Of a DNA stretch of 64,000 nucleotides, positions 15,267 to 41,572 are shown piece after piece; position 1 is the stretch's first letter; every line of letters starts with the position of its first letter. The stretch spans positions 20,401 to 84,400 of IMG/VR virus record IMGVR_UViG_3300042691_015935; one strand, written 5' to 3'. The position numbers and the translations under genes are program-made. This DNA comes from a virus. Under the pieces are notes generated by a model, which did not search any database, was not told the origin of the DNA, and was given only the letters and a program-made list of their open reading frames with translations.

Positions 15267-15269
15267 GAA

Positions 15270-26639: not shown

Positions 26640-26915
26640 TTAAGGAATGGTCTGTTTAAAGTTACCTTTGAATTTAACACCTAAAGATTCTAAGTACTCT
26701 CTTACTTCTTCTTTAGCTTTACGCAATGATTTATACGATGTCTTGTGTACTGTAGTAAATTGATCATCGTTTAATGTCTCTCTTACTGAATATGTTCTAT
26801 TTGATAAGTTAATACAAACATAATATAAGTTACCATTTGCTGAGAAATATTTACTAAGTAAACAATCACCAGCCTTGGTGTATGTTATCTTTGTTGGAAA
26901 TAAATCTAAAGTCAT
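26640..26915 (-). CDS. Hypothetical protein, 91 residues
   Basis: Start at the second ATG (26915), because AGGAG is 7 nt before it and abuts the first. Beta-rich N-terminus, basic helical C-terminus (SLRKAKEEVREYLESLG). Not recognised. Confidence 0.55.
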   Translation of the reverse strand: MTLDLFPTKITYTKAGDCLLSKYFSANGNLYYVCINLSNRTYSVRETLNDDQFTTVHKTSYKSLRKAKEEVREYLESLGVKFKGNFKQTIP

Positions 26916-27154
26916 AAACATTCTCCTACTTCATAAAGGAAATCTTTATAAAATGAAGTACCATCTATCATCTCTTGTCTGGTTACTTGTATATAAGAAT
27001 CATTAAATGATTTAAATTCAACGTCACCGTCGGAGTGAATATCTTTAAGTAAACAATATAAAATAATGTAAGTACTGTTTGTATTATACATGTAACACAT
27101 GTAACAGTAAAATTTATCTTCTCTTATGTCTTTAATGTTTGTTATTCTTTTCAT
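26912..27154 (-). CDS. Hypothetical SH3-like small protein
   Basis: 80 residues, aromatic and beta-rich (DKFYCYMCYMYNTNSTYIILYCLL), ending in YEVGECL, the same 'VGE' ending as at 27151 and 34707. Likely in the paralogous small-protein set. 4-bp overlaps on both sides. Confidence 0.52.
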   Translation of the reverse strand: MKRITNIKDIREDKFYCYMCYMYNTNSTYIILYCLLKDIHSDGDVEFKSFNDSYIQVTRQEMIDGTSFYKDFLYEVGECL

Positions 27155-27351
27155 ACTACCTCACCCACTTTATTTAACATTATATCTTTGAAATCACCAA
27201 ATGATCTATCTGATTTAATATCTGTACCAATATAATAATAAGATATATAGCTTCCCACTATGGATTCAATTAATACTAAAGCTAATTGAAACTTATCTCT
27301 TAGAGCATCTGTTTCGCTCATTTGTACAATATCTCCAACTTTAATATTCAT
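27151..27351 (-). CDS. SH3-like KxGD small protein
   Basis: 66 residues, MNIKVGDIVQMSE start and KVGEVV end. Member of the KxGD family. Overlaps the transglycosylase gene end by 11 bp. Confidence 0.57.
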   Translation of the reverse strand: MNIKVGDIVQMSETDALRDKFQLALVLIESIVGSYISYYYIGTDIKSDRSFGDFKDIMLNKVGEVV

Positions 27352-27727
27352 TTAATACCTTCCTATAATATAAATCATTTAATGGGTTATCTATTCTTGA
27401 ACCACCTACAACACCACGATTATAACAAACAACGAATGTTTTATTTTGTTTGTGTTTACATCTTTTACTAAAATAACTAAGTAATTGTATACCTCTGTGT
27501 ACATTAGTACATGGGTCTAGTAGTTGTTCGTGTGTCTCGATAACAAATTCGGGGCGTATTTGCATCAGACCAACTTCGCCTATACTACCTATTACCTGTG
27601 AATTAAAACGTGACTCAACGCTAATTAAAGCGTACACAAGACGTTCATTAACATTATACTTTTCTGAATACATTTGAATACAAGAAGAAAGAAACCAAGA
27701 ATTAATCAGACTCACCAAAGACTGCAT
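27341..27727 (-). CDS. Lytic transglycosylase (SLT domain)
   Basis: 128 residues. Catalytic Glu in ALISVESRFN, followed by GSIGEVGLMQIRP and CYNRGVVGG, the three motifs of the SLT fold. The N-terminal hydrophobic stretch with SSC may be a signal or lipoprotein anchor. It cleaves peptidoglycan. Being in the early arm, away from the M15 endolysin, it may open the wall for early functions or act against competing phages. The start is the second of two adjacent ATGs (AGGAGG spacing). Confidence 0.82.
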   Translation of the reverse strand: MQSLVSLINSWFLSSCIQMYSEKYNVNERLVYALISVESRFNSQVIGSIGEVGLMQIRPEFVIETHEQLLDPCTNVHRGIQLLSYFSKRCKHKQNKTFVVCYNRGVVGGSRIDNPLNDLYYRKVLNEY

Positions 27728-27887
27728 CATATACCTCCTGTAATGTATCGTAATCTATCTGACCTCCACCGATATTTATTATCAGTTCATCAGGTAATAC
27801 TACCATTACATTTGATCTATCTAACTCAGCAATTAATGAATTCGAGTTAAATACTGTGTGCTTATCTTTAAGGAATTGAATGACCAT
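27702..27887 (-). CDS. Hypothetical protein, 61 residues
   Basis: Compact acidic protein (GGGQIDYDTLQEVYDAVFGESD), overlapping the transglycosylase start by 26 bp. A TTAACAACTGT motif (27910-27900) precedes it. Not recognised. Confidence 0.5.
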   Translation of the reverse strand: MVIQFLKDKHTVFNSNSLIAELDRSNVMVVLPDELIINIGGGQIDYDTLQEVYDAVFGESD

Positions 27888-27920
27888 AAGACCTCACACA
27901 CAGTTGTTAAGTTAATAATT

Positions 27921-28043
27921 TCAAGCTCTTAGAAGCTTGCTTAGAATTAGAGCTACGAATACAAAAACCAACAAACCATTTGACAGTAAACTTAATACAG
28001 CTATACCAGACAAACGTAATAATAGTTTAGTAATGTCGCTCAT
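27921..28043 (-). CDS. Membrane protein with uncertain start
   Basis: From ATG 28043 it gives 40 residues; the hydrophobic frame extends upstream (FLLGILATFIL) to near 28090 without any ATG, GTG or TTG but behind a strong GGGAGGT. Two hydrophobic helices overall. Either the start is non-canonical or a frame change has occurred. Confidence 0.45.
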   Translation of the reverse strand: MSDITKLLLRLSGIAVLSLLSNGLLVFVFVALILSKLLRA

Positions 28044-28083
28044 TAAAATGAATGTTGCTAGAATCCCTAGCAGGAATAAAATA

Positions 28084-28185
28084 CTAGTCGATTTGTACCT
28101 CCCTATTGTAAAAGATTTTACTTAGCGTATTAGCTAGCTTTAAAAATAGAAACAAAACTACACCTATAACTAATACCTTTTGCAT
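28084..28185 (-). CDS. Single-span membrane microprotein, 33 residues
   Basis: TAGGAGGTAT before the ATG is a strong ribosome site. One hydrophobic helix (VLVIGVVLFLFLKL) and a polar end. Its 3' end contains the GGGAGGT that precedes the next membrane frame. Confidence 0.5.
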   Translation of the reverse strand: MQKVLVIGVVLFLFLKLANTLSKIFYNREVQID

Positions 28186-28192
28186 ATACCTC

Positions 28193-28552
28193 CTATTGTA
28201 CTGTGTCTTTTTTACCAAATGGAATAACATTACTAATGTCGTCGAATGTTCCGTTATCACCTTCTGTTAAGATTGATTCGTTCAGTAGTGCTTCTTCAAT
28301 CTGTTCAATTTGTTCTGGAGTATCAGCAACCATTAACTGTAATGCTGTTGACTCGATCACTTTGTATTCTTCTGGAGTTAACTGTGACTTCATTTGATTT
28401 AAGTAATCGGTTTGAACATCAAGTAAACACTGTAGTAATACAATGAACGGACCTTGTTCTTCAATTAGTTGAGGCGTTGTCAGTGACACTTCATTTGCTT
28501 TATGTTTAATCATACTAAGCAATGAATTTAAAACGATCTGGTATTGATTCAT
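28193..28552 (-). CDS. Hypothetical helical acidic protein, 119 residues
   Basis: Start at ATG 28552 (AAAGGAGG upstream). Helical with Gln/Glu-rich C-terminal part (PEQIEQIEEALLNE). No family recognised. Confidence 0.55.
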   Translation of the reverse strand: MNQYQIVLNSLLSMIKHKANEVSLTTPQLIEEQGPFIVLLQCLLDVQTDYLNQMKSQLTPEEYKVIESTALQLMVADTPEQIEQIEEALLNESILTEGDNGTFDDISNVIPFGKKDTVQ

Positions 28553-28569
28553 AATCCTCCTTTGTTGGA

Positions 28570-28824
28570 TTAAGCTATTAAGTCTACTTCTAATGGGTGA
28601 ACCCACCAATATTCAGTAGTTTGTGTTACTCTCTTAACTCTTAATGTATGTGTATCAGGATTTGCAATAACTATTAACACATCACCTAACTTAAATCTGT
28701 TATAAATACTAAGTACTGATCTTTCATTATTAAACTCTACTGTATCAAATGTATTATCTAGGTCATCATAATCCTTAACACACCTTTTCACTTGAACTAT
28801 ACTACCTTTTTTAAATGTTCTCAT
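28570..28824 (-). CDS. SH3-like small protein (KKGSIVQV type)
   Basis: 84 residues, MRTFKKGSIVQVKRC at the start and FKLGDVLIVIANPD in the middle, that is two KxG(D/S) signatures, suggesting a duplicated or longer barrel. 4-bp overlap with the zincin gene. Confidence 0.57.
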   Translation of the reverse strand: MRTFKKGSIVQVKRCVKDYDDLDNTFDTVEFNNERSVLSIYNRFKLGDVLIVIANPDTHTLRVKRVTQTTEYWWVHPLEVDLIA

Positions 28825-29363
28825 ATTGTTACACCCTTCATAATTTTTTGTACATTTCTCAACACCTTCTTATCGAAGTCACTACACAAATACTCACATA
28901 CATCAGTTAAATCTTGAATGATGTTATCCTCTAAGTATAATGTTGTATCTAGTATTGGGATATCCTTCAAGCTTCTTATGTCACGTTTAAGAAGAAAGAA
29001 TAAGTCTGACCTCTTAGATTGATCTAAAACATTCCACAACAATACTAGACAACCAGCGTGTGCTAGTATCTCTTCGTGTAATATATCTACTCTATCTTGT
29101 ACTTTATGTTTGATATTATAAAGAGATGGTCTATCTAATCTATCCTTGTGACCAGTTGAATGTATTAACTCGTGCATCAGTGTCACATAACCCCAATTCT
29201 TATTAGAAGAAAGCTTCTCGTTTATTACTATAATATCAAGTGGAATCATATACTTACCAAATGAATCTATCTTATCACTGTTAAATATCTTAGGGAAAAC
29301 AAAGTCATCATAGTTTAATGAACCACCTATTAGTTTATCCAATGCGTGTAGTTGAATGTTCAT
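28821..29363 (-). CDS. Zincin-like metallopeptidase (ArdC C-terminal domain type)
   Basis: 180 residues from ATG 29363 (AAAGGAG). HExxH motif in LMHELIHSTGHKDRLDRP and a downstream glutamate in DILHEEILAHAG match the metallopeptidase domain found at the C-terminus of ArdC antirestriction proteins. The ssDNA-binding ArdC N-domain is missing. It overlaps the ATP-grasp gene by 29 bp and so may work with the amide-bond cluster, for example trimming a peptide modification. Confidence 0.7.
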   Translation of the reverse strand: MNIQLHALDKLIGGSLNYDDFVFPKIFNSDKIDSFGKYMIPLDIIVINEKLSSNKNWGYVTLMHELIHSTGHKDRLDRPSLYNIKHKVQDRVDILHEEILAHAGCLVLLWNVLDQSKRSDLFFLLKRDIRSLKDIPILDTTLYLEDNIIQDLTDVCEYLCSDFDKKVLRNVQKIMKGVTI

Positions 29364-30135
29364 TTGTTCTCCTTTGTTCATTGATGTATTGTATGATATT
29401 GTTAACCCATATATCTAAGTTAAGTGAGTTAAGTCCTGGACTAGAATTAACTTCAATAACATAGAACCGTTTCTTATCCCTATCAAATATAATATCAACT
29501 CCACCGAATAATAAACCCAAACCTTGTACAGCTTTAATACACATTTGTTGTGCATTTAAATTACATGTTGATATCTCTGGATTACATTTTCTGAATTGAC
29601 AGTTATGTGATTTATATATCTTAACACTAGAATCATTAGGTATCTTCTCATACACACCTAGAATCTTACCATTGAATACATGTACTCTATACTCTTTCTT
29701 ATTAACAATAGGTCTTGTAATATATAAATCAGTATCTCTTATTGTGTTGTCATATCTAACAACCATATCTCTACCACGTACATAGAAATATCCGTTAGTA
29801 TCTTTGTATCTGTTAATATCAAATGTTGATCTATCACCTTCAATTAAATCAAAGTATTTAGGTGTTCTAACTCCTTCGATCTGTTTTAGATTCTTAATCA
29901 TATCGTGTTTGTTAGATGCTTTACGCACAGCTTGTTTATCATTAAGTGTTAATGTCTGGTTGCTGTCATTGGTTCTACTCTCGCCCCATCTAACGAATAC
30001 ATTGCTATGTTTAGGAGTCATGTATTCTCTAACCCTGCGTACTTTCCTAAAGGCTCTTGAATTTTTTAATTTAAGATACAATAACTTACCTGTCTTACAT
30101 GATTTATTTGAGTAAGAAAAGTTTAATGTTGTCAT
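29335..30135 (-). CDS. ATP-grasp ligase (COOH-NH2 ligase type)
   Basis: 266 residues. ATP-grasp features: YVRGRDMVVRYDN (phosphate-loop region), KKEYRVHVFNGKILG, and the metal-binding end FGGVDIIFD ... FYVIEVNSSPGL with E and N ligands. Such enzymes join a carboxylate to an amine. It lies 1.2 kb from a class II glutamine amidotransferase and an amidoligase on the same transcript, a combination known from phage and bacterial gene clusters predicted to modify peptides or the cell wall. Confidence 0.85.
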   Translation of the reverse strand: MTTLNFSYSNKSCKTGKLLYLKLKNSRAFRKVRRVREYMTPKHSNVFVRWGESRTNDSNQTLTLNDKQAVRKASNKHDMIKNLKQIEGVRTPKYFDLIEGDRSTFDINRYKDTNGYFYVRGRDMVVRYDNTIRDTDLYITRPIVNKKEYRVHVFNGKILGVYEKIPNDSSVKIYKSHNCQFRKCNPEISTCNLNAQQMCIKAVQGLGLLFGGVDIIFDRDKKRFYVIEVNSSPGLNSLNLDIWVNNIIQYINEQRRTNEHSTTRIG

Positions 30136-30365
30136 ACAGCATCTCCTAATTTTATAAATAGTTCTTGAGAGTATATTGATATACTGCCACGTAATAATCT
30201 ATTTTCGTATCCTTTTATTGGACAAAGTTTAAATATTCTTATATTGGTTGGTAATATATTATACACTAAAAAAATCCTCCCTTGAAGAAGTGAACCAAAA
30301 CTTGTTGGTGAAACCTTAATATATAAACAACCTTTCACTAATTCATTTACCTTAAGTACTTTCAT
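30132..30365 (-). CDS. Tandem small-protein paralogue 1 (77 residues)
   Basis: Starts MKVLKVNELVKGCLYIKV and aligns with the next two proteins at MKx(V/I)LKY(P/E)(E/D)L..xKLYMK. Predicted all-beta. 4-bp overlaps on both sides. Function unknown. Confidence 0.55.
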   Translation of the reverse strand: MKVLKVNELVKGCLYIKVSPTSFGSLLQGRIFLVYNILPTNIRIFKLCPIKGYENRLLRGSISIYSQELFIKLGDAV

Positions 30366-30595
30366 TCTACACTCCCTATTTCAATGAACTCAGGAAGTTT
30401 ATCACCTGGTATATAGTGTGTTCTAGTAAATCCTCTGATTATATAAGGTCTTAACACAATTATTTTCTTTTGTTCAGGGTTAGATGTAATCTCTGTAACT
30501 ATAAATATTTCACCTGACATAAGATAACCATTACCATTTACCTTCATATATACTTTGTTTACTAGTAGTTCTGGATATTTAATTACTTTCTTCAT
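30362..30595 (-). CDS. Tandem small-protein paralogue 2 (77 residues)
   Basis: MKKVIKYPELLVNKVYMKVNG start, EFIEIGSVE end. A 31-bp exact DNA repeat (30361-30391 and 30591-30621) covers the end of this gene and the end of the next, so the pair arose by recent duplication. Confidence 0.57.
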   Translation of the reverse strand: MKKVIKYPELLVNKVYMKVNGNGYLMSGEIFIVTEITSNPEQKKIIVLRPYIIRGFTRTHYIPGDKLPEFIEIGSVE

Positions 30596-30807
30596 TCTAC
30601 ACTCCCTATTTCAATGAACTCTGCTCTAGTATCAGCTGGAACATAATAACAATCCTCTATTTTATTACCAACATAACTTCTTGTTTTTTTGCGATAAGGA
30701 GTGATTTCTCTAATGTAAAAATAATTAGTTAGACAAAGGTAATGATCACTATTTAATTTCATATACAGTTTACCCATACACAAATCTTCGTATTTAAGAA
30801 TCTTCAT
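30592..30807 (-). CDS. Tandem small-protein paralogue 3 (71 residues)
   Basis: Start at ATG 30807 (GGAGGTAG upstream). MKILKYEDLCMGKLYMKL start, EFIEIGSVE end identical to paralogue 2. Middle divergent. Beta-rich. Confidence 0.56.
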   Translation of the reverse strand: MKILKYEDLCMGKLYMKLNSDHYLCLTNYFYIREITPYRKKTRSYVGNKIEDCYYVPADTRAEFIEIGSVE

Positions 30808-31027
30808 TACTACCTCCACACTCACATACTAGTTTTAATAATTGTCTTTCTTTGAAGTTTGAGTATGATCTTTGAAAGGTTTCACCTTCTCCTCCTAAGT
30901 ATATATATTCAACTTTGTCACTCCAAGGATTAGAGTATGTTACATAAATTAATCTGTAAGTATTACTTCGACTGAAGTAAGGATTAGTACCTTCCGTGGT
31001 AAGATAAATACTATTTGATTTAATCAT
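30794..31027 (-). CDS. Hypothetical small protein, 77 residues
   Basis: Tyr/Ser-rich beta protein (TYRLIYVTYSNPWSDKVEYIYL), possibly a diverged member of the same set. C-terminal CECGG may bind metal. Confidence 0.5.
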   Translation of the reverse strand: MIKSNSIYLTTEGTNPYFSRSNTYRLIYVTYSNPWSDKVEYIYLGGEGETFQRSYSNFKERQLLKLVCECGGSNEDS

Positions 31028-31028
31028 A

Positions 31029-31310
31029 CTAAGCCCTTTGTTTAAACTTCAATCTCTTCTTTGTCTTTCTAATCCTATCTTTAATAATCTCTAATACATT
31101 ACCTATAGATTCATATTCTGCTGGATTATAGAAGTCCCATTGTTCATCAGGTATTACACCTGTTTCTTGGAACTCATACATTGTATCACTGAGTGAATAC
31201 ATGTCTTCAATAGCTGAGTCTAAAGCCTCCAACAAATCATCATCTGTTAGATGTTCTACGTCCCTTGCTTTCAAGGGAGTATCTTCTGTTTGATGTTCTT
31301 GTTTTATCAT
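31029..31310 (-). CDS. Hypothetical acidic protein, 93 residues
   Basis: Acidic helical protein with a basic C-terminal end (KDRIRKTKKRLKFKQRA). It directly follows the glutamine amidotransferase gene. Not recognised; possibly the substrate or a partner of the amide-bond enzymes. Confidence 0.5.
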   Translation of the reverse strand: MIKQEHQTEDTPLKARDVEHLTDDDLLEALDSAIEDMYSLSDTMYEFQETGVIPDEQWDFYNPAEYESIGNVLEIIKDRIRKTKKRLKFKQRA

Positions 31311-31325
31311 ACAATCCTCCTTTAA

Positions 31326-32399
31326 TTAAGCATAAGAAACACTGTCGTCATTGTTATAAGCATCATACAATAGCTTAAGTTTAGTATCGTAATCCATACT
31401 GTTTAATACATCTTGTTCATCTTTAGATAAGGTTAAACAATATTGCAACAAAACAGATGACATAGCACTCACTACTGTCATGTCGATCTCACTAGCTTTA
31501 GATGTCGAAGACGTTGACGATTCCTCTCTTCCGTTCGAGTAAAGCCAGTTCGAACACGAGCTTGATTGTTGACTGGCAAACCTTCTTGAAGAAGAATATG
31601 ATTGACGATGAACAAATGTTCTATTAATATCTGTAACACTAATAGGTTCACCTGTGATAGCATCAACTCTCAATAGTTTATTATCGAATAAAGGGAAGCA
31701 TAATGGCTTCTTCCATTTCAATTTCTCACAAGTATTCTTAATGATATCATCACTTGTACAAATAATAAAGCCACCGATCTCTTCAACTTGAGCAATAAAA
31801 AGTGGAGCATTGTATTTAAACACATCAAGAATTCTTCTACCATCTGATTGTTTACTAAGAGTAGCAACACCCCAATAACCCTCTAGAGCATCAGTTGTTT
31901 CCTGAATCTTACTTGAGTTATTAGCAACATCATTCTTTAGGTACTCATTCAAGATTGTTTCAGAATCACACGTTGAAATAATATTAGTTAACTTATGTGA
32001 GTTATTGATAACTCCATTATGAATCAATGCTGTGTCATCAATAATAAAAGGGTGAACATTCTGAAATGTTCTAGCACAAGTAGCCCATCTTGTATGGAAT
32101 ATAATTGATTTAACATTCTCGAAATTAATATTTCCTGTAGATGAATACTCTGTTTCATCAAGAGCTGTAGGAACTTTATCTTTAATGACACCCTGATACT
32201 TAGCTAACTCAGTCAGTGGTTTTAAGAAAGCTTTAGACACATCAAGAAATCTTTCAGAAAACATATTCCCGTCACCATCAATAGCCGCATAACCTAATCC
32301 GTGATTATCAGATTTAGTCATGTCAGCTTTAGATGCGAACATAAATTGTTTTGCTTTCAAACCATTTTGAATACCAAACATCACCATTACTTTACACAT
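31326..32399 (-). CDS. Class II glutamine amidotransferase (Ntn hydrolase)
   Basis: 357 residues. Cys2 directly after the initiator Met (MCKVMVMFG) is the Ntn nucleophile; HTRWATCARTFQNVHPF near residue 101 and ALIHNGVINN near 129 are the glutamine-binding motifs shared with GlmS and AsnB amidotransferase domains. No synthetase domain follows; a Ser-rich linker and a helical tail do. It should release ammonia from glutamine, which the neighbouring amidoligase or ATP-grasp enzyme could use. Confidence 0.88.
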   Translation of the reverse strand: MCKVMVMFGIQNGLKAKQFMFASKADMTKSDNHGLGYAAIDGDGNMFSERFLDVSKAFLKPLTELAKYQGVIKDKVPTALDETEYSSTGNINFENVKSIIFHTRWATCARTFQNVHPFIIDDTALIHNGVINNSHKLTNIISTCDSETILNEYLKNDVANNSSKIQETTDALEGYWGVATLSKQSDGRRILDVFKYNAPLFIAQVEEIGGFIICTSDDIIKNTCEKLKWKKPLCFPLFDNKLLRVDAITGEPISVTDINRTFVHRQSYSSSRRFASQQSSSCSNWLYSNGREESSTSSTSKASEIDMTVVSAMSSVLLQYCLTLSKDEQDVLNSMDYDTKLKLLYDAYNNDDSVSYA

Positions 32400-32408
32400 A
32401 CTTACTCC

Positions 32409-33884
32409 TTATGCAAATTTTAAAATACGGTTATTAATATAATCTAAAGATTGACTTGGGATACCTTCGATATAATTAGGAATCGTTTCAACTTTTCTAG
32501 GAGAAGATTCTAATTTAGAAGTAGCATTAACAATAGGTAAAATAAAGTTAATCCAATTTAACATATCATCAGTATCTACTGTGCCCTCATGAACTCTAAT
32601 CTCTAATGTTTTATGTCGAGCATAAGACATAGGATTGATAACTAAGTATCTGTCAGATCGTCTACCTCCTGATGTCATGTTTGCTTTGTATTGATAGTCT
32701 TCAATGTTCGGTGACTCAGTTGGTCTACAATAAGTGTTTGATCTTCTTTGTTCTGGTTGTGACTCAACTAAAAACTTTTGAAGCTTAACTAGATTATGAA
32801 ATGCAATTGCTACATCTCTCTTTCTCATATCAAAATGAACATGCAATCCACAACTATTATTTACTGAACACTGTGCTTCTTGTAATGCAACACCTAATCT
32901 ATTTAGGATTTCGATACGATTGTTTTCTGGAACTAATACTCTGATTTCGTGAGTGAAAGGGTATCCATCTGAAGTTCTAAGTGAACCATCTGATGTAACA
33001 TTAGTCCATTTCTGTAACTTGTTTTTAATTAACACCTCTTTTAATTTACCAACGTCAGACTTAGAAATTAATTCAATCTCAATACCAATGAATGAATCGT
33101 TGTTGTATGGTTTCTTTTCATCATTGATTAGATTCTTTTGAATGTGTTCATACATTTTTAAATACTGTCCATTAGTTTGAGCAACACCATTGTACAATTC
33201 AATAGCACCAAACCTAGTTTCTTTCTTTGTCGGACTAGACTTAACTGCTAATCTTTGTTCACGAAGTTTTTTATTAAGAGCTTGATGTGCTTTTAATTTA
33301 ATAGCCTTCAAATCTTTCTTAACGATAGTCACACCATTCTGAACTACTTCAACAGTAGGCATTGGAATTTCTACTTCCAATAGTTTCTTCCCTACTGTAC
33401 GTGATGCTCTAACTTTAAGTTCTTGATTCATTAACTTACTTAGCTTCTCACGATTCTCTTTAATCTTTTTAGATAAAGTATTTTCTTTATCAGTTTTACC
33501 TTTAACACCTAGTCGTTGTTGTTCCTTATCAAGAGCTTCTAACTTCTTAGTTTCTTTTAGTAAAGTGAAGAACATTGTGTTCTTATTTTCTTTAACACTA
33601 AATACTTTAATCTTTAAGTCTTTAGGAAATATAACTTTCTTGTATCTTTCAAATACTAAGTTATCTTTCAACACAATGAACTCTGTTCCTTCTTTAATTA
33701 ATATCTTTTTACTATCTAACGTAAATGAAATATCTTCGTTCAATATACAACGAACATATTTATTGTTCTTATCAAACTCACCAATGTATTCAATCTCTTT
33801 TCCAACAAAATAAGGTCCGAGTTTATTCTCTTTGTCCTTATTAATTTTGTAGATAGCACCTAACTCAAATACTTTTGTTTCCAT
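32409..33884 (-). CDS. Amidoligase (glutamine-synthetase/GCS-fold, amidoligase_2 family)
   Basis: 491 residues from ATG 33884 (GGAGG upstream). The N-terminal 80 residues look SH3-like (LGAIYKINKD, VGKEIEYIGEF), a Lys-rich coiled region follows, and the C-terminal 230 residues are the ligase: FIGIEIELIS (metal-binding Glu), NNSCGLHVHFDMR and KTLEIRVHEGTVD. The family makes amide bonds with ATP. Next to a glutamine amidotransferase and ATP-grasp ligase it forms a predicted peptide-modification system. Substrate unknown. Confidence 0.85.
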   Translation of the reverse strand: METKVFELGAIYKINKDKENKLGPYFVGKEIEYIGEFDKNNKYVRCILNEDISFTLDSKKILIKEGTEFIVLKDNLVFERYKKVIFPKDLKIKVFSVKENKNTMFFTLLKETKKLEALDKEQQRLGVKGKTDKENTLSKKIKENREKLSKLMNQELKVRASRTVGKKLLEVEIPMPTVEVVQNGVTIVKKDLKAIKLKAHQALNKKLREQRLAVKSSPTKKETRFGAIELYNGVAQTNGQYLKMYEHIQKNLINDEKKPYNNDSFIGIEIELISKSDVGKLKEVLIKNKLQKWTNVTSDGSLRTSDGYPFTHEIRVLVPENNRIEILNRLGVALQEAQCSVNNSCGLHVHFDMRKRDVAIAFHNLVKLQKFLVESQPEQRRSNTYCRPTESPNIEDYQYKANMTSGGRRSDRYLVINPMSYARHKTLEIRVHEGTVDTDDMLNWINFILPIVNATSKLESSPRKVETIPNYIEGIPSQSLDYINNRILKFA

Positions 33885-33885
33885 A

Positions 33886-34089
33886 TTACTTACCTCCAAT
33901 ATTTAATGAAACATCTTCATGTTCCATTAGTTTAGTTTTAATATCTTCGTTCTTTGATTCATAAACTCTGTGTAATCTTGACTGCCAATCAATTGCTTCT
34001 TCTAATGTTAATCGCTTCGGACATCTATCATAAACTTTCCACCCTTTATTGTTTAGATTGTAACTAATATAGTACTTAGTGTTATCCAT
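33886..34089 (-). CDS. Hypothetical protein, 67 residues
   Basis: Starts MDNTKYYISYNLNNKGWKVYD; a beta hairpin then helix (LTLEEAIDWQSRLHRVYESK). Directly upstream of the amidoligase gene with 1 bp between. Could be a partner; unknown. Confidence 0.52.
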   Translation of the reverse strand: MDNTKYYISYNLNNKGWKVYDRCPKRLTLEEAIDWQSRLHRVYESKNEDIKTKLMEHEDVSLNIGGK

Positions 34090-34097
34090 GTTGCCTC

Positions 34098-34283
34098 CTA
34101 ATATTTAATAACTTCTACTATTTCATCATCTATACAATATAAATTAGTATCAAAGTTAATAATATCTACCTTGGTACTATTACCGTTAGGTGATATCCAT
34201 TTAATAATAGCTAGTCTAGTGATGTGAATACCTCTGAAATATCCTTTTACTTTAATAACTGAACCTTCTTTATATAGTTTCAT
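34098..34283 (-). CDS. SH3-like small protein (KEGSVIKV)
   Basis: 61 residues beginning MKLYKEGSVIKVKGYF, a KxGS variant of the family signature. All-beta. 4-bp overlap upstream. Confidence 0.57.
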   Translation of the reverse strand: MKLYKEGSVIKVKGYFRGIHITRLAIIKWISPNGNSTKVDIINFDTNLYCIDDEIVEVIKY

Positions 34284-34474
34284 GATACCTCCTCTACGTC
34301 TTCATATGTCAACCATATTTCTTGCTTACCAATAACAAGAACCTTAACCCAAGAAACTTCACGTCCAGTAAACGTAACGTGTTTTACAACACCTAAACGA
34401 TTAATAAAATCTTTAGGGTTTAGTTTAGTGTAAGTTTCTGGAATCTTAAGAATCTTCACTACTTTGTTTTTCAT
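34280..34474 (-). CDS. SH3-like small protein
   Basis: 64 residues; beta-rich, ends EIWLTYEDVEEVS. Same size and place as the other family members but with a diverged start (MKNKVVKILKIPETY). 4-bp overlaps on both sides. Confidence 0.52.
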   Translation of the reverse strand: MKNKVVKILKIPETYTKLNPKDFINRLGVVKHVTFTGREVSWVKVLVIGKQEIWLTYEDVEEVS

Positions 34475-34719
34475 TCTTTCCTCCTATATACGTTTATTTT
34501 GTTATGTAGATACCATTGATAATCTTGGTTTAAATAATCCATTAATTTTTGTTTATAACCATGACTACCTGTGTTTAAATTATAACTATTATAATACGTG
34601 TTATTGTAACAACATTCAATCAATGTAGACTCAGGTCGTTTAGTAATTAAAAATCCTTTATTTTGTAATGCTAACATGTGACAATAATTATAACATTGTA
34701 TATCAGTTAATTCCCACAT
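34471..34719 (-). CDS. Hypothetical Tyr/Asn-rich protein, 82 residues
   Basis: Rich in Tyr, Asn and Cys (ECCYNNTYYNSYNLNTGSHG). Helical ends. Not recognised. Confidence 0.5.
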   Translation of the reverse strand: MWELTDIQCYNYCHMLALQNKGFLITKRPESTLIECCYNNTYYNSYNLNTGSHGYKQKLMDYLNQDYQWYLHNKINVYRRKE

Positions 34720-34943
34720 ACAGCTTCTCCTATTTTTTTAAGCTTTATAATGAAAAATGAATGTTCAGTGAACGTGAACCACTGACGGATACCTAACATC
34801 TCTACCTTGTAAAATCTATTTGATCCATATACATAACATTTTATTACAATAATTATATCGTAATCTTGATCTATTAAAACATCACCTTCGTAATACTTAA
34901 AACCTTTAATCTTCGTAAAGTAAAACTTCTTCAAGAGAAACAT
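34707..34943 (-). CDS. SH3-like small protein, start uncertain
   Basis: From ATG 34943 it has 78 residues with FKYYEGDVLIDQDYDIIIVIK, a YEGD version of the signature, and ends KKIGEAVCGN. The start region overlaps the upstream gene and has no good ribosome site, so translation may be coupled. Confidence 0.5.
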   Translation of the reverse strand: MFLLKKFYFTKIKGFKYYEGDVLIDQDYDIIIVIKCYVYGSNRFYKVEMLGIRQWFTFTEHSFFIIKLKKIGEAVCGN

Positions 34944-35118
34944 CTTCCAAGCTAGATAAGTTAGCATATAGTTGACGTAACTTTTTAATCTTATCACGTT
35001 CATGTTTACCTCTGTTTGATAAAATAGACTGAGCTTGTTGATGTGTTAAGTTTGGTTTATACAAATTGTATTTAATTAATAATCGTTTTTGCTTTGTCGT
35101 TAAAAGTTTTTCACGCAT
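34906..35118 (-). CDS. Hypothetical helical basic protein, 70 residues
   Basis: ATG 35118 has TTGGAGGT upstream. Helical, with LTHQQAQSILSNRGKHERDK resembling a small helix-turn-helix or nucleic-acid-binding unit, and an acidic end. Not assigned. Confidence 0.5.
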   Translation of the reverse strand: MREKLLTTKQKRLLIKYNLYKPNLTHQQAQSILSNRGKHERDKIKKLRQLYANLSSLEDVSLEEVLLYED

Positions 35119-35143
35119 TGTCACCTCCAAAATAGAAACAAAA

Positions 35144-35260
35144 CTAACATCTACTCACCAACGCATCACCTATATAGTACCCAAACATAAATACTTTATA
35201 GATAAAATAAACAGTTAGTAATCCTAATAATAAACTTAATCCTTTTAATATGTTAACCAT
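35144..35260 (-). CDS. Single-span membrane microprotein, 38 residues
   Basis: GGAGGTAATAG before the ATG; hydrophobic helix LLLGLLTVYFIYKVFMF. Starts 8 bp inside the end of the upstream gene. Confidence 0.5.
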   Translation of the reverse strand: MVNILKGLSLLLGLLTVYFIYKVFMFGYYIGDALVSRC

Positions 35261-35435
35261 CTATTACCTCCAATGGTATCATGAATAAAATAGTATCATA
35301 CAATGAAACCTGTTCATAAGTTCTAATTTTAGATTCAGTGACTGATTGAAAGTAACCATATACACCATATTTGTCTCGTCTATTAAATTTACAATACATA
35401 CCATCATATCCCTTATGTATAACTAAGTAGTACAT
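35253..35435 (-). CDS. MYYxVI paralogue 1 (60 residues)
   Basis: MYYLVIHKGYDGMYCKF start and ILFMIPLEV end; aligns with the next two proteins. A 29-bp DNA repeat (35264-35292 versus 35437-35465, one mismatch) shows the tandem duplication. Beta-rich, unknown role. Confidence 0.55.
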   Translation of the reverse strand: MYYLVIHKGYDGMYCKFNRRDKYGVYGYFQSVTESKIRTYEQVSLYDTILFMIPLEVIDG

Positions 35436-35626
35436 GTTACCTCCATTGGTATCATGAATAAAATATTTTCTTTAAAACTGAATTGACATAAATCTCCTAA
35501 TGGTATATTATTCACTGTTGCTTTAACAGTGACAGGTCGGAAGTACCCACTTAAAGTATAATTATTTTCACCAATTACTTTACAGTACATAGCTTCACAT
35601 GTATCATGTATAATTAAATAGTACAT
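35423..35626 (-). CDS. MYYxVI paralogue 2 (67 residues)
   Basis: MYYLIIHDTCEAMYCKV start, ILFMIPMEVTCTT end. Shares both ends with paralogue 1 while the middle has diverged. GGTAAC-type site upstream. Overlaps paralogue 1 by 13 bp. Confidence 0.55.
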   Translation of the reverse strand: MYYLIIHDTCEAMYCKVIGENNYTLSGYFRPVTVKATVNNIPLGDLCQFSFKENILFMIPMEVTCTT

Positions 35627-35817
35627 ACAACCTTCATTGGTATGACATAACTAATAAATTGTTTTCGTATAAATGAAATACCTATTAGGTGTTCATTTAA
35701 ATAACAACCGACACTATACATACCAGAATATTTATCATGTGTAACTACGAGGTCTTTACAAAAACTATAGCCTATACTATCATCATTAGAACTTCGCCAT
35801 ATCACTATGTAATACAT
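35614..35817 (-). CDS. MYYxVI paralogue 3 (67 residues)
   Basis: Start at ATG 35817 with AGAGGAG upstream. MYYIVIWRSSNDD start and YVIPMKVVCTI end. Most diverged of the three. Confidence 0.54.
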   Translation of the reverse strand: MYYIVIWRSSNDDSIGYSFCKDLVVTHDKYSGMYSVGCYLNEHLIGISFIRKQFISYVIPMKVVCTI

Positions 35818-35980
35818 CTTTACTCTCCTCTGATAAAGGGAATTCAATCAAAGCTATATACCTAACACCTATCTCTTTTAACTTAATAGATGTGTCAGTG
35901 AACTCCTTTAAATATGAGTCGTTGTTCACAATGTATGGATATACTATCTTTGTTTTATCTGGACGTTGTTCTAAAATCAT
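35786..35980 (-). CDS. Hypothetical protein, 64 residues
   Basis: TAGGAGAG before ATG 35980. Mixed alpha/beta (YIALIEFPLSEESKDVL). Overlaps the next gene by 32 bp in another frame. Confidence 0.5.
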   Translation of the reverse strand: MILEQRPDKTKIVYPYIVNNDSYLKEFTDTSIKLKEIGVRYIALIEFPLSEESKDVLHSDMAKF

Positions 35981-36182
35981 TTATCTCTCCTATTATAGAA
36001 TAGTATTCAATATTTTTTATTCTGTAATCAACCCAAGAGTAACATTTAGAACCATCTAATCCAAAAAAATAACCTCTAACAAACCAATCATTGATACATG
36101 AGTCCTCAAATGTTGTATTAAATGGAATAAATATATATGAAACAAACCAATGATCACTGTTCATAAAATAAACTGTTTTCAT
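35955..36182 (-). CDS. Hypothetical aromatic small protein
   Basis: ATG 36182 chosen; the codon three before is a TTG without site. 75 residues, MKTVYFMNSDHWFVSYIF start and an aromatic middle (CYSWVDYRIKNIEYYS) similar in style to the MYYxVI group. Weak ribosome site. Confidence 0.48.
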   Translation of the reverse strand: MKTVYFMNSDHWFVSYIFIPFNTTFEDSCINDWFVRGYFFGLDGSKCYSWVDYRIKNIEYYSIIGEINDFRTTSR

Positions 36183-36183
36183 A

Positions 36184-36372
36184 TTAACCAACGTTTGTTA
36201 TTTCAATTAAGTCTCCATCTACTTCAAGTAATAACTTATCTTTCTGCCAATCACGTTCACTTATAGTGTACTGATATGAGTCCCATAATTCTTGTTTTAA
36301 TTCTGTAACATTACAAATAAATTCAAATGGTTTCTCAAGCATTTCAGTTACAATAACAATTTTCTTTTTCAT
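36184..36372 (-). CDS. Hypothetical protein, 62 residues
   Basis: Starts MKKKIVIVTEMLEKPFEF; ends in an acidic beta strand (LLLEVDGDLIEITNVG). AAGGAG before its ATG. Not recognised. Confidence 0.52.
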   Translation of the reverse strand: MKKKIVIVTEMLEKPFEFICNVTELKQELWDSYQYTISERDWQKDKLLLEVDGDLIEITNVG

Positions 36373-36385
36373 TTAAAACTCCTTA

Positions 36386-36568
36386 TTACCAAAGGTTTCC
36401 ATATCTACCTTGTTTAATGTTACGTTGAATCTCGTATTCACTTACTATATTCTTAAGTCTTTCTACTTCTTTTTGTAGTTTAACTATTTCTTTTCTCAAT
36501 TGAATTACTTCATCATTACAGTTACATTCGGTATAATGTAATCCACATTCATTACAAAAACCACTCAT
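36386..36568 (-). CDS. Zinc-knuckle plus leucine-zipper protein, 60 residues
   Basis: Start at ATG 36568 (CGGAGATG). CNECGLHYTECNC at the N-terminus is a likely zinc site; heptads (IVKLQKEVERLKNIVSEY) make a dimerising coiled coil. Ends in GNLW. A small DNA- or protein-binding regulator is possible. Confidence 0.55.
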   Translation of the reverse strand: MSGFCNECGLHYTECNCNDEVIQLRKEIVKLQKEVERLKNIVSEYEIQRNIKQGRYGNLW

Positions 36569-36923
36569 CTTCATCTCCGTAATTAGGGTTAATAATCTTT
36601 TGTATCTCGCTTAATTTAACTGTTTGGTAATTGAGCTTATTCCTAGCATCTTCTAAGTATAATATCAAACTACTTATTAAACCATTGTATGAGTTCTCAA
36701 TGGTGCTTCCACAACCTGAATGAATATAATTACCTTTGCTATCATAAACTCTAACGAAAAAAGGATTATACACATCACACGAGTGATCATAACCTTGATT
36801 AAATAATAGTTCTTCATACACCCCATTGTGTTTCATATATCTAACTTTATAAGAGTTAATTCTCTTATTCTTTTCTTTATTTTTTCTTAGTTCTTTTAGA
36901 ATATTTTCATCATTAATCCTCAT
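36552..36923 (-). CDS. Hypothetical protein, 123 residues
   Basis: Basic helical start, central beta domain (YKVRYMKHNGVYEELLF), C-terminal helix and an acidic aromatic tail DEDEWFL, similar in character to the tails of the replication proteins. Upstream neighbour is the DNA ligase. Confidence 0.52.
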   Translation of the reverse strand: MRINDENILKELRKNKEKNKRINSYKVRYMKHNGVYEELLFNQGYDHSCDVYNPFFVRVYDSKGNYIHSGCGSTIENSYNGLISSLILYLEDARNKLNYQTVKLSEIQKIINPNYGDEDEWFL

Positions 36924-36931
36924 CTAATCTC

Positions 36932-37807
36932 CTATAAATCATTAACATTTCTGAACCCTTTATAAACAGGAAACCTAGGCTTCTCCTTCATACCAGAAGG
37001 TTGAAATGTATAAGTTATTATTTGGTTAATGCAACCACTTCGTTGTTCCCATATTAGTTTACGTTGCTCATCATTAAACCCTGTACCAATATCAAACACC
37101 ACATCAGTATTAATATCCTTAACTGTTATCGAACCTAGCGTGTTGGCAGGAATTAAATTCTCTTTATGTGAGCTACGTTTAGTGTTACCTAACTCATCTA
37201 TCGTTGCTTCATTGTTATTAATCATCTTCTCATTGAATGATATGATCGTTGCCTCACTATCTTCAAAGCGTTTAATCTTTAATAGATACTGTTCTTTAAC
37301 TGTTGATCTACCACATTTATATGGAGAGTTAATTGATCTAACCATTACACCTTCATATCCTGCTGATATCCATACTTCTTCTGTTACATTTAAGTCATTA
37401 ATATTTTTAACCATCATTGGTTCGAGAGACACGACATTCTTAATACCTAACTCCTTAACTTTACTAATATATTGTTCAACACGTTGTTGATATGGTGTGT
37501 TGATTGAATCCTTAACCCAATCAAATACAAAGTAAGCGAACTCTGGTTCACCATCTTCACTCATAACAAGTGATTGTGTTTCATTGAATGTTTTATTAGG
37601 ACATATAATCTCACCATCAAATCCGTCTGGTAGCTGTGATAATTTTTGTTGAATATATTTATTTGGAATCTCAATAAACTTACGAGACAAAGCTCTACCA
37701 TTAATTATTAAACAACGAATACCATCTAGCTTAGGTGTAGCCAATACAGGAAACTGTAAGTTATTAATATCACCTACGTTACAAGCGAGCATTGGTTTAG
37801 TTATCAT
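36932..37807 (-). CDS. ATP-dependent DNA ligase
   Basis: 291 residues. Motif I ATPKLDGIR (nucleophile Lys near 26), DGEI, FAYFVFDW, EGVMVR and LLKIKRF (motif V), then an OB domain. Size and pattern match T7-type minimal ligases. It seals nicks during phage DNA replication. 1-bp overlap with the upstream zinc-binding gene. Confidence 0.92.
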   Translation of the reverse strand: MITKPMLACNVGDINNLQFPVLATPKLDGIRCLIINGRALSRKFIEIPNKYIQQKLSQLPDGFDGEIICPNKTFNETQSLVMSEDGEPEFAYFVFDWVKDSINTPYQQRVEQYISKVKELGIKNVVSLEPMMVKNINDLNVTEEVWISAGYEGVMVRSINSPYKCGRSTVKEQYLLKIKRFEDSEATIISFNEKMINNNEATIDELGNTKRSSHKENLIPANTLGSITVKDINTDVVFDIGTGFNDEQRKLIWEQRSGCINQIITYTFQPSGMKEKPRFPVYKGFRNVNDL

Positions 37808-38109
37808 TAGTCTCTCCTTCTAGTGTGTCCTTGAACAGCACGGACAAGTCCATTTGATTTAGCCATACTTGAATTAACCTTGAGATTATTACCCAAGTTA
37901 GAACCCTTGTTCCTTAGCTTAGTTGCATTGATAATGTATTGTGTTAGTCTAGGGTCAGAGTTAATCTGTATATCACACCCTGTCTTATGATCGTAGATCA
38001 TGTTACCAGTGTAACAATCTACATCACTAGCACAGTCCGAACACTCGTCAATCTTACCCTTCTTATTCTTACTAACTTCAATCTCACCATCACAATGACG
38101 ACAATACAT
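37807..38109 (-). CDS. Zinc-ribbon protein
   Basis: 100 residues. CRHCDGE ... CSDCASDVDC in the first 32 residues makes a zinc ribbon; the C-terminal half is basic (KLRNKGSNLGNNLKV, GHTRRRD). A nucleic-acid-binding role next to DNA ligase is likely; no exact family. Confidence 0.6.
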   Translation of the reverse strand: MYCRHCDGEIEVSKNKKGKIDECSDCASDVDCYTGNMIYDHKTGCDIQINSDPRLTQYIINATKLRNKGSNLGNNLKVNSSMAKSNGLVRAVQGHTRRRD

Positions 38110-38118
38110 ATTACCTCC

Positions 38119-38280
38119 TTAGTTAAATAAGGAAAGAATATCCTTAATGATTTGTTGCTTAACATCTCTATCTTTTTTCTTACTAACCTTTAATCTTCTA
38201 TCATATAATTTAAGAGCTTCAATAATAACACTAGCTTCAACTGTACCCTTAACAATCTCTTTTCTTTTTGTTTGTTGCAT
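38119..38280 (-). CDS. Small basic helical protein, 53 residues
   Basis: ATG 38280 is preferred (AAAGGA 6 nt upstream) over ATG 38286. Sequence MQQTKRKEIVKGTVEASVII ... then basic helix (RRLKVSKKKDRD). Unknown. Confidence 0.55.
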   Translation of the reverse strand: MQQTKRKEIVKGTVEASVIIEALKLYDRRLKVSKKKDRDVKQQIIKDILSLFN

Positions 38281-38297
38281 ACTCATTCCTTTGTTTA

Positions 38298-38474
38298 TTA
38301 AAGTTTAAATAACTTCTCTCTCCAATATTCATTTATATAATTAATACAACATCTTAAATCTTGTTTATACATTCCATGTACTGAAAATATTCCTTTTCTT
38401 TTTATAGATATATTAATCCCTTGATAATAAGTTTGATATATACCATTAACACATTGCCACTTTAATGTAATCAT
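38298..38474 (-). CDS. Hypothetical small protein, 58 residues
   Basis: Strong AAGGAG site. MITLKWQCVNGIYQTYYQG start, aromatic and beta-rich like its neighbours, ending in a helix. Unknown. Confidence 0.52.
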   Translation of the reverse strand: MITLKWQCVNGIYQTYYQGINISIKRKGIFSVHGMYKQDLRCCINYINEYWREKLFKL

Positions 38475-38482
38475 ATAACTCC

Positions 38483-38566
38483 TTAGAATGTTGATGCTGA
38501 TAGTTGTATTAAGCTGATGAATCCGTGAAGAAAAAGAAACCAGAATACAATGTATATTTGTGTCAT
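38483..38566 (-). CDS. Membrane microprotein, 27 residues
   Basis: TAGGAGAG site before the ATG; almost all hydrophobic (IYIVFWFLFLHGFISLI). Overlaps the upstream gene by 4 bp (ATGA), supporting real translation. Confidence 0.48.
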   Translation of the reverse strand: MTQIYIVFWFLFLHGFISLIQLSASTF

Positions 38567-38775
38567 GTTATCTCTCCTAGTTTACAGTGTATATAAGAAT
38601 CAAATGTATTTTTATATCTTGTCCAATTACAAAAACCCACTAAGTTTACATAGCTATATACAAATTTTATAGGTGTTTCATCTTGTATAACAATAATGGT
38701 TGCTTTAAATACAGGATCCCAATCTTCTTCACCCATATTAGTTAGTAAAATATCACCCACTTTATACTTATTCAT
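38563..38775 (-). CDS. SH3-like KxGD small protein
   Basis: 70 residues, MNKYKVGDILLTNMGEEDW start and KLGEIT end. Clear KxGD member. 8-bp overlap with the upstream gene. Confidence 0.58.
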   Translation of the reverse strand: MNKYKVGDILLTNMGEEDWDPVFKATIIVIQDETPIKFVYSYVNLVGFCNWTRYKNTFDSYIHCKLGEIT

Positions 38776-38965
38776 ATGTAACTCCTACCTTCATAATAAC
38801 ATACGAACCGAAATTATTTATACTTTTCATTTGTATATTATCTTTCTTAGCTATATATTTATATGTTACAATATTATCTCTTATATTAGTTATTACTATA
38901 AGAGACATTTCATAACTACAATCTACCTTTGTTCCCATTAAATATAACTCACCTACCTCATACAT
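38768..38965 (-). CDS. SH3-like small protein (YEVGELY)
   Basis: 65 residues, MYEVGELYLMGTKVD start; beta-rich. Tandem with the KxGD protein downstream. Confidence 0.55.
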   Translation of the reverse strand: MYEVGELYLMGTKVDCSYEMSLIVITNIRDNIVTYKYIAKKDNIQMKSINNFGSYVIMKVGVTYE

Positions 38966-39078
38966 AACATAACCTTATGTTTCAATAACTTCAAGCGTAG
39001 AGACACATCTATGTTATGTTCTTTTAATAACTTAAGCAACATAAGCTCTGAGCGTAGTGCTTTAATATAAGTTTCCAT
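38953..39078 (-). CDS. Helical microprotein, 41 residues
   Basis: AGGAGG site 6 nt before the ATG. Leucine-rich basic helix (LMLLKLLKEHNIDVSLRLKL). Its end overlaps the next gene by 13 bp. Confidence 0.52.
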   Translation of the reverse strand: METYIKALRSELMLLKLLKEHNIDVSLRLKLLKHKVMLCMR

Positions 39079-39079
39079 A

Positions 39080-39394
39080 TTACACCTCCTGTTTACAGTC
39101 GGGACATACCCATATCATGAAGTTAGTTAACACTTTGTTATGATATTTTCTTGGGTGTGTACAGGTTGTTTGTTGTACTTGAGGGACGGACGTTGGTTCT
39201 TTAAACAGTTCATATAACTTATCAATTGTTTCAAGAAAAAATAAAAATTTTTCACCTACTTGTTTTGTTTTACTATTGTAGTGAATTCTCTGAACTTTAT
39301 ATATATTATTAACTTCTATAATTTCATAGATTGAATTATATAATTTGTTTTTATGAATAATTATATCCCCAACTTTAAACTTTGGCGTTGTCAT
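39080..39394 (-). CDS. SH3-like KxGD protein with C-terminal zinc ribbon
   Basis: 104 residues: MTTPKFKVGDIIIHKNK SH3-like part, then a Pro/Gln linker and CTHPRKYH ... WVCPDCKQEV, a one-ribbon zinc site. It is the longest cytoplasmic member of the family and lies just downstream of the type II hammerhead ribozyme, whose 3' product starts its mRNA. Confidence 0.62.
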   Translation of the reverse strand: MTTPKFKVGDIIIHKNKLYNSIYEIIEVNNIYKVQRIHYNSKTKQVGEKFLFFLETIDKLYELFKEPTSVPQVQQTTCTHPRKYHNKVLTNFMIWVCPDCKQEV

Positions 39395-39407: not shown

Positions 39408-39470
39408 GGACTCGTCAGGTTACACATAATGTAACGACGACCGACTAATTCTAGTCAGGTCGTTTCGTCC
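39408..39470 (-). ncRNA. Hammerhead ribozyme, type II (HHR-C)
   Basis: All core elements on the minus strand: GAAA (39466-39463), stem III 39462-39458 and 39456-39452 with 39438-39442 and 39443-39447 (one bulge), cleavage triplet GTC ending at 39436, stem I GTTACA/TGTAAC (39435-39430 with 39424-39419), CTGACGA (39418-39412) and stem II GTCC/GGAC (39411-39408 with 39470-39467), left open. Cleavage falls between 39436 and 39435. The next gene's AGGAGG starts 3 nt after stem II. Confidence 0.85.
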
Positions 39471-39547: not shown

Positions 39548-39871
39548 TTATCCTACCTTCTTATCCATATCTTGTGGATTAAATGCTTTGATTTCTTTTC
39601 TTGATAACTTATCATTGTTATCTTGAACGAATTGTTGGATTGTTGCTAGGTTCTCAATAAACTTTTCAAATTGTTGAACATACATATTGATTGGAAACCT
39701 ACCACCTAACCCATAGATAGTTAATCCACCACCTTTGTTAATCTCAACCCTTACAGTGTTACCCACTAGGTTGTTAAGAATCTTTAATTGTTCTTGTTGC
39801 TTCTTTAACTGCTCGATAAGAGCTTGTTTTTCTTCAAGTAATTGTTTCGCTGTTTTTGTTGCAGTTGTCAT
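39548..39871 (-). CDS. Coiled-coil protein, 107 residues
   Basis: N-terminal coiled coil (LLEEKQALIEQLKKQQEQLKI within 10-32), then a beta segment NTVRVEINKGGGLTIYGLGG and a helical end. AAAGGAG before the ATG. It is the gene between HHR-B and HHR-C, so its mRNA would be excised with 5'-OH and cyclic phosphate ends. Not recognised. Confidence 0.58.
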   Translation of the reverse strand: MTTATKTAKQLLEEKQALIEQLKKQQEQLKILNNLVGNTVRVEINKGGGLTIYGLGGRFPINMYVQQFEKFIENLATIQQFVQDNNDKLSRKEIKAFNPQDMDKKVG

Positions 39872-39913: not shown

Positions 39914-39973
39914 TAAGCTGTTTCGGTGTGACATTACACCTCGTCAGTCAGACTTATAGCCTGAGACAGCTTA
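39914..39973 (-). ncRNA. Hammerhead ribozyme, type III (HHR-B)
   Basis: Minus strand: stem III TAAGCTGT/ACAGCTTA, 8 bp (39973-39966 with 39921-39914); cleavage after C39965 (GTC); stem I TCAGGC/GTCTGA (39964-39959 with 39953-39948); CTGACGA (39947-39941); stem II GGTGT/ACACC (39940-39936 with 39929-39925); GAAA (39924-39921). Every invariant core position is present. It lies in the leader of the gene at 39871. Confidence 0.9.
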
Positions 39974-40868: not shown

Positions 40869-41572
40869 GTGATTCTCCTAGTTTAAGTATATATTTAATT
40901 ATATATACAAGAATTTAATTTTAATCTCGACTTGTCAGGTCGATGCCGAGCTATCATTCAAGCCCCATGCCAACTCATTTTCTGAACAAAATCAAGCACT
41001 TAGCTGTGGTTCACAATGACACCAGTATCGAAAAGTCACCAAAAACAGAGCCAAAATGCCACCAAAGCCAGTATCAAAACAACACCATCTCAACAAATTC
41101 AAGCACTTAGAGCTAAGTACCTGAAATCTCGTAGCATGGTATAATAAGAACCCGTGCGTGTGTATTAATACCCGTATGCGTGTGCATATGCCCCTGCGTG
41201 TGTTTTTATATACCTGCGTGAGCGTACGTGCGAGCGTGTGCGTGCATGGGTGTGCAGGTGCGTGTAGGCGTGAGCGTGTGTGTGCATGATGCGTAGGCGT
41301 GTGTGCGAGCGTGTGCGTGCGTATGTGTGCTAGGGGGGGGGTACACCCTTCGTGGTTCAGGGTGACATTGACCGAGTACATTCACTCACTTTACCCTCTC
41401 AACTATAGAAACCAGTAACCCTTCACCCTACTACTCATTCACAACCTTTATAACAACTCTTAGTATAATAGCCTCTAAAACGAACAAAAACAGGGTTATT
41501 TGATACTTTAGTATATAGACCTAATAGTTAGTATTAAAGCTTCTAAAACCTCTTTAAAAGGATATTAAGCTT
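40869..41572. other. Divergent non-coding region, candidate origin/control region
   Basis: About 700 bp separate the leftward and rightward arms. Contents: an AT-rich segment (40880-40925) where leftward promoters are likely; repeated words at 40985-41120 (TCAAGCACTTAG twice, CCAGTATC twice, ACTTAGAGCTAAGT palindrome); a GT/GC alternating tract to 41341; and an AT-rich segment with TATAAT at 41464-41469 facing the rightward genes. The only ORF (40992-41381) is low-complexity and not credible. Confidence 0.6.
41153..41341. repeat. GT/GC alternating purine-pyrimidine tract ending in G9
   Basis: About 190 bp of irregular GTGCGTGTG-type repeats in an otherwise AT-rich genome, with G confined to the plus strand and C to the minus, ending in nine Gs (41333-41341). 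Alternating purine-pyrimidine favours Z-DNA; strand asymmetry favours R-loop or unwinding structures. Likely part of an origin or replication/transcription switch. Confidence 0.8.

Follow-up and report, generated by a model that had tools for sequence, protein, structure and literature searches.

The 64,000-nt window analyzed here, bases 20401-84400 of the 84.4-kb virus record IMGVR_UViG_3300042691_015935, carries a leftward array of very small genes in which SH3-like mini-proteins have undergone a genuine if modest expansion within a single phage lineage. The reading that we prefer, and that we regard as somewhat probable, is that this array holds at least eight SH3-like barrels from two sequence families, that both families have been duplicated and turned over within this phage and its sister, and that their products serve as small binding modules on host targets. 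A first-pass annotation had described the genes as one expanded family defined by an N-terminal KxGD motif; it over-counted the members and unified them too far.

Feature coordinates are window positions, and genes are named by their lower coordinate. This phage (G0) was compared with a sister phage (G1) of 84.9 kb, whose structural and replication genes are typically 75-97% identical to those of G0, and with 17 more distant relatives, complete or partial. Gene calls came from a simple purpose-made caller that misses open reading frames (ORFs) shorter than 30 aa, and micro-ORFs were spotted by eye. A megablast of the region against annotated phages returned no close relatives, and the capsid protein is similar to that of only one annotated phage, which infects Silvanigrella aquatica (29% identity). 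Because of this resemblance, the host may be of a Silvanigrella-like kind.

Two Families of Mini-Proteins

Families were defined by leave-one-out profiles searched against 2,197 genes. These profiles recover two families, both common only to G0 and G1: family II, with seven sequences (27151, 30794, 38768, probably 38563, and three G1 proteins), and the LYM family, with eight (26912, 30132, 30362, 30592, and four G1 proteins). The G0 members are as follows.

27151-27351, minus strand: family II, 66 aa, KVGDIV, modeled; leave-one-out E = 9e-8
30794-31027, minus strand: family II, 77 aa, KSNSIY replacing KxGD; leave-one-out E = 9e-9 and family alignment
38768-38965, minus strand: family II, 65 aa, EVGELY; leave-one-out E = 9e-5
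38563-38775, minus strand: probable family II, 70 aa, KVGDIL; leave-one-out E = 0.03, one non-member above
30592-30807, minus strand: LYM, 71 aa; phmmer E = 9e-13, leave-one-out E = 6e-8
30362-30595, minus strand: LYM, 77 aa, second tandem copy, modeled; phmmer to 30592 E = 2e-12
30132-30365, minus strand: LYM, 77 aa, third tandem copy; leave-one-out E = 4e-4, no non-member above
26912-27154, minus strand: LYM, 80 aa, separate slot, weakest member; leave-one-out E = 0.08, no non-member above

The start of gene 30592 was placed at 30807 rather than at the GTG of 30825. Within both families the genes have good Shine-Dalgarno sites, unbroken frames, and a conserved hydrophobic pattern. Searches beyond the comparison set added no members: tblastn with 30362 and with 38563 gave no convincing match, and neither a scan of viral contigs with 30362 nor one of bacterial genomes with 27151 found a relative. 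The two families, absent from Pfam and without a strong PHROG match, extend the known repertoire of phage accessory proteins, and a probable fold can now be assigned to them.

Five further genes carrying KxGD or KxGS at the N-terminus (24939, 26119, 28570, 34098, and 39080) have mainly the motif in common, and a lipoprotein outside the array has a related internal segment.

24939-25199, minus strand: KxGD singleton, 86 aa; motif, syntenic with G1 74060-74323 (phmmer E = 0.02)
26119-26349, minus strand: KxGD singleton, 76 aa; G1 2932-3174 (33%, E = 8e-6)
28570-28824, minus strand: KxGS singleton, 84 aa; G1 78559-78834 (E = 9e-10)
34098-34283, minus strand: KxGS singleton, 61 aa; motif, synteny with G1 83578-83760 (E = 0.08)
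39080-39394, minus strand: KVGD domain with a C-terminal Cys/His tail, 104 aa; G1 2649-2942 (E = 2e-14)
17399-17743, minus strand: lipoprotein with internal KVGD segment, outside the array; hhalign to 39080

Gene 28570 also has a weak match to PHROG 22718 (E = 6e-4), a group to which no function is assigned. Profile-profile comparison with hhalign, run with control clusters alongside, gave three links that extend beyond the motif: 39080 to 17399 (41 columns, P = 75%), 26119 to the 28570 family (40 columns, P = 63%), and 27151 to 30794 (55 columns). A single homologous KxGD family is therefore not what the data describe: its supposed members fail to retrieve one another by profile beyond the motif and resolve into two families plus singletons. 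What stands of the proposed expansion is the pair of families with differing copy number in the two sisters. The singletons may be SH3-like proteins by convergence.

The N-Terminal Motif

K-x-G-[DS]-[IV] stands at the N-terminus of seven of the 81 G0 genes of 130 aa or less (24939, 26119, 27151, 28570, 34098, 38563, and 39080), all on the minus strand, whereas 300 within-protein shuffles gave a mean of 0.09 and a maximum of 2, so the over-representation that had been noticed is genuine. G1 has four such genes against 0.06 expected; among the 17 more distant relatives, G10 has two and 14 have none, nor do the T4 and SPO1 segments. Seven is the highest count among the 24 sequences examined. "At least a dozen" members, as first proposed, is reached only approximately, when the motif is relaxed or the LYM genes, which carry a variant [GN]-K/C-[VL]-Y, are added. 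Relaxation (G to N; D/S to E/K/Q/C) yields 11 genes against 2.6 expected, some of them unrelated. The interval first assigned to the array, 30132-39394, misses roughly half of the set (24939, 26119, 26912, 27151, and 28570). The amidoligase, whose N-terminus (ELGAIY) had seemed similar, has no profile support in residues 1-90, where the best hhalign score, 14.2, is to a control.

The motif codons are mixed (GGA/GGT/GGG for Gly and GAT/GAC for Asp), and selection therefore acts on the protein and not on a DNA signal; a cause at the RNA level was considered and ruled out by the same mixture.

A C-Terminal Tail That Doubles as a Shine-Dalgarno Site

Many members also end in [KE]-[VIL]-G-[EDS]. 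The two sisters together have 16 genes with a terminal [VIL]-G-[EDS]; for 12 of them, the distance from the Gly codon to the following called ATG is 10-11 nt. Because of this spacing we interpret the GGA/GGT/GGG of the tail as the next gene's Shine-Dalgarno, translated in frame. Among the remaining four, a conserved 25-aa ORF comes after 24939 and G1 74060 at similar spacing, and a 27-aa ORF after 38563; 35144, which is not a member, is the sole tail gene without such a neighbor downstream. Unrelated overlapping genes show the same tail effect (e.g., FKGEVE). In the family II model this stretch is, in addition, the final strand, and so it has a double role. Three translated Shine-Dalgarno sites lie in the tandem LYM genes.

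30599-30608, minus strand: translated Shine-Dalgarno of 30362, within the 30592 tail; codes IGS
30369-30378, minus strand: translated Shine-Dalgarno of 30132, within the 30362 tail; inside a 31-nt identical repeat
30139-30148, minus strand: translated Shine-Dalgarno of the ATP-grasp gene 29335-30135, within the 30132 tail; codes LGD, 11 nt before the ATG

The N-terminal KxGD, a genuine protein motif, can thus be told apart from a tail that has an additional cause in the nucleic acid, and such tails are a trap when tiny overlapping phage genes are grouped by their termini. Both micro-ORFs mentioned above are hydrophobic: the 25-aa one (24871-24948, minus strand) overlaps 24939 and is kept in the sister phage (MPLIFIIMAICYLGFLYCIKDLDIK), and the 27-aa one occupies 38483-38566.

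Predicted Folds

AlphaFold2 models cover both families. The family II model (27151), built from the seven sequences, has a pLDDT (predicted local distance difference test) of 93.5 and an SH3-like order of elements, with strands E7-11, E25-32, E35-40, E46-50, and E58-64 and a helical turn, H51-57; it forms a barrel of five strands in which a short helical turn precedes the final one, as expected of an SH3-like fold. KxGD leads into strand 1. Among solved structures, the closest are Tudor, KOW/Spt5, NdhS, and FeoA barrels, with Z up to 7.1. For LYM, N-domains of EF-P take the top six places, followed by eIF5A, and Tudor domains also match, with Z up to 7.4. The label "SH3-like" is thus supported by predicted structure for two families, well for family II and with less certainty for LYM; the singletons, which share mainly the motif, are at best candidates for it. 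Among viral proteins in BFVD there were 1,074 weak matches, many of them 55-75 aa and mostly small uncharacterized phage proteins; since small SH3-like proteins are this common among phage hypotheticals, calling such an expansion unusual for phages was too strong.

Copy Number and Turnover

Copy number differs between the sisters at three slots. Between the transglycosylase-like gene 27341 and gene 26640, G0 has one family II and one LYM gene and G1 has two and three, respectively; beside the ATP-grasp gene there are three tandem LYM copies in G0 and none in G1; and a separate tandem family, MYY, has three copies in G0 and one in G1. Duplication and loss are therefore real.

35253-35817, minus strand: tandem family MYY, not KxGD (copies 35253-35435, 35423-35626, and 35614-35817); phmmer E = 3e-10 and 0.07

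A 31-nt identical repeat (30361-30391 and 30591-30621) spans two LYM junctions. Because these 31 nt at the 3' junctions are identical although the proteins of 30592 and 30362 are only ~42% identical, recombination at the junctions is suggested.

Both families would have arisen through duplication and turnover inside this phage pair. As the tail includes the ribosome-binding site for the overlapping gene downstream, any copy that is duplicated would carry its neighbor's start signal along, and head-to-tail duplication would be easy. A more far-reaching version would make the genes self-propagating cassettes, in which the final strand holds the next ribosome-binding site and the junctions serve as short homologies, so that copies could be added, lost, or exchanged with expression intact while loops diversify against host targets; we rate this as improbable, a speculative extension.

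Function and Alternative Explanations

Early accessory proteins of this sort serve phages in manipulating the host, and products of the array would act as small binding modules, for protein or nucleic acid, on host targets. The operon mates include Mom, RimK-like ATP-grasp, glutamine amidotransferase, and amidoligase genes as well as NAMPT-like, phosphoribosyltransferase/Prs-like, Macro domain, RNA ligase, and PNKP genes. The Mom family protein (25550-26122; DNA modification, anti-restriction) matches Pfam PF25680 at E = 2e-29. Such genes have been tied to counter-defense in the literature, as for NARP1 (PMC12774641). Because several of these gene types are used against host defenses, the small proteins most likely function in counter-defense or host takeover, by association with their operon context, and nucleic-acid or ribosome binding is the main alternative role. 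Should host factors indeed be their targets, the array would supply naturally varied proteins on a common scaffold with which to identify those factors. As a separate observation, the NAMPT-like gene (20647-22131) and the phosphoribosyltransferase/Prs-like gene (23631-24398) are possibly a pair for reconstitution of nicotinamide adenine dinucleotide of the NARP1 kind.

Several results weigh against the reading of two related expansions of host-directed barrels. Neither family profile finds the other family among the 2,197 genes. The LYM model (30362), a five-stranded barrel, has moderate confidence (pLDDT 73, predicted TM score 0.62), and every structural match of both models has Z < 8; because such middling values may reflect a mere common arrangement, we claim a fold class and not kinship with EF-P. 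The small proteins have no Pfam, PADLOC, or Protein Data Bank (PDB) sequence match and weak PHROG matches at most; the PDB sequence searches gave chance matches only, and PADLOC gave no match at E ≤ 1, its models covering defense proteins and so having little bearing on counter-defense. The leftward operon is probably early, a timing that is read from position only. Finally, KxGD genes are not significantly more divergent between sisters than neighboring small genes (median identity 29% versus 39%, Mann-Whitney p = 0.15), although a post hoc count points the opposite way, with identity above 45% in none of 13 members versus 11 of 25 neighbors. The rapid diversification first proposed accordingly describes the whole early region and is not specific to KxGD genes.

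The strongest competitor, tentative in our judgment, holds that the KxGD genes have no common origin, being small beta-barrels that came by convergence to a generic lead-in to strand 1, with tails alike only through the next ribosome-binding site. Most cross-family hhalign matches do span only 8-22 N-terminal residues, the tail motif coincides with the ribosome-binding site, and KxGD genes of the relatives G10, G11, and G17 are not recovered significantly by the family profiles; yet convergence does not account for the leave-one-out recovery of seven family II and eight LYM sequences or for cross-cluster matches of 40-55 columns (27151-30794, 26119-28570, and 39080-17399). That the proteins are KOW/EF-P-like barrels binding ribosomes, RNA, or RNA polymerase, and redirecting host translation or transcription instead of countering defenses, appears unlikely to us. 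The EF-P and eIF5A matches of LYM and those of family II to KOW domains of Spt5 and ribosomal proteins point in that direction, as does the early T4 protein MotB, a DNA-binding protein with a KOW domain by prediction (PMC7827196), but Z values of this size could mean only a common arrangement, and there is no sequence match to either family, whether in Pfam (15 members, E ≤ 10) or in the PDB. We consider it very improbable that the array is filler made up of non-adaptive ORFs under weak selection in a variable region: strong divergence or absence between the sisters would suit filler, but the good Shine-Dalgarno sites, intact frames, conserved hydrophobic pattern, and confident SH3-like model of family II would not.

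Comparison with Known Systems

T4 MotB, an early protein with a predicted N-terminal KOW domain and a C-terminal OB-fold (PMC7827196), resembles the array proteins in being an early accessory protein of a phage whose barrel is SH3-like/KOW-type and whose sequence has no relatives of known function. It differs in being larger, two-domain, conserved in Tevenvirinae, and demonstrated to bind DNA (PMC7827196), whereas the array proteins are single barrels of 60-86 aa found in two phages only and known from sequence and models. The N-domain of EF-P/eIF5A superposes on the LYM model with a root-mean-square deviation of 2.2 over 62 residues; LYM lacks the further EF-P domains. Small hypothetical proteins of Klebsiella phage KP8, which has a KAGDII protein, and of Salmonella phage 7-11 resemble the array proteins in size and predicted barrel (TM 0.72-0.86), but both phages have fewer motif genes in the segments examined, and the likeness is one of fold, with no homology claimed. 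Phages of the phiEco32-like group, such as Salmonella phage 7-11, also interleave ATP-grasp, glutamine amidotransferase, COOH.NH2 ligase, NAMPT, and Prs genes with small genes; they are of another lineage, and no related small proteins were found there.

Other Features of the Window

Two hammerhead-ribozyme cores flank gene 39548-39871.

39408-39470, minus strand: core of a type II hammerhead ribozyme, 14 nt ahead of the start of gene 39080-39394; match to core plus three stems
39917-39970, minus strand: type III hammerhead-ribozyme core; core search

No cores occurred in 30 shuffled genomes, and the type II core has a fold z of -3.9. In G1 the orthologue is flanked by the same pair, G15 has two type II cores around a homologue, and related phages have single or paired cores near homologues of this gene. 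Because hammerheads flanking single phage genes have been described (PMC3088659), the pair is a fresh example of a known arrangement. Predicted cleavage would free an RNA of ~530 nt, and the phage encodes an RNA ligase and PNKP. Rfam finds nothing in the window, and nothing at the hammerheads or at the tRNA-like region described below. A shared ACATTCATTT element after two stem-loops was dropped, its frequency not being above chance.

The intergenic stretch 15125-15269 combines a promoter-like TTGACA/TATAGT with a plus-strand palindrome resembling a tRNA, where ARAGORN, like Rfam, finds nothing and fold z is only -1 to -2. A second promoter-like sequence, TTGACA-17-TATACT with TG before the second hexamer, lies at 24839-24867 (minus strand) upstream of 24576-24827, and the sister phage has a similar one at the equivalent place. 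A lipoprotein-like gene with collagen-like GxY repeats (12584-13204) is absent in the sister phage. The gap between the two gene arms contains an imperfect GTGCG-rich repeat (41177-41340), possibly an origin or regulatory site, and a similar repeat occurs in the sister phage (L009:5055-5162).

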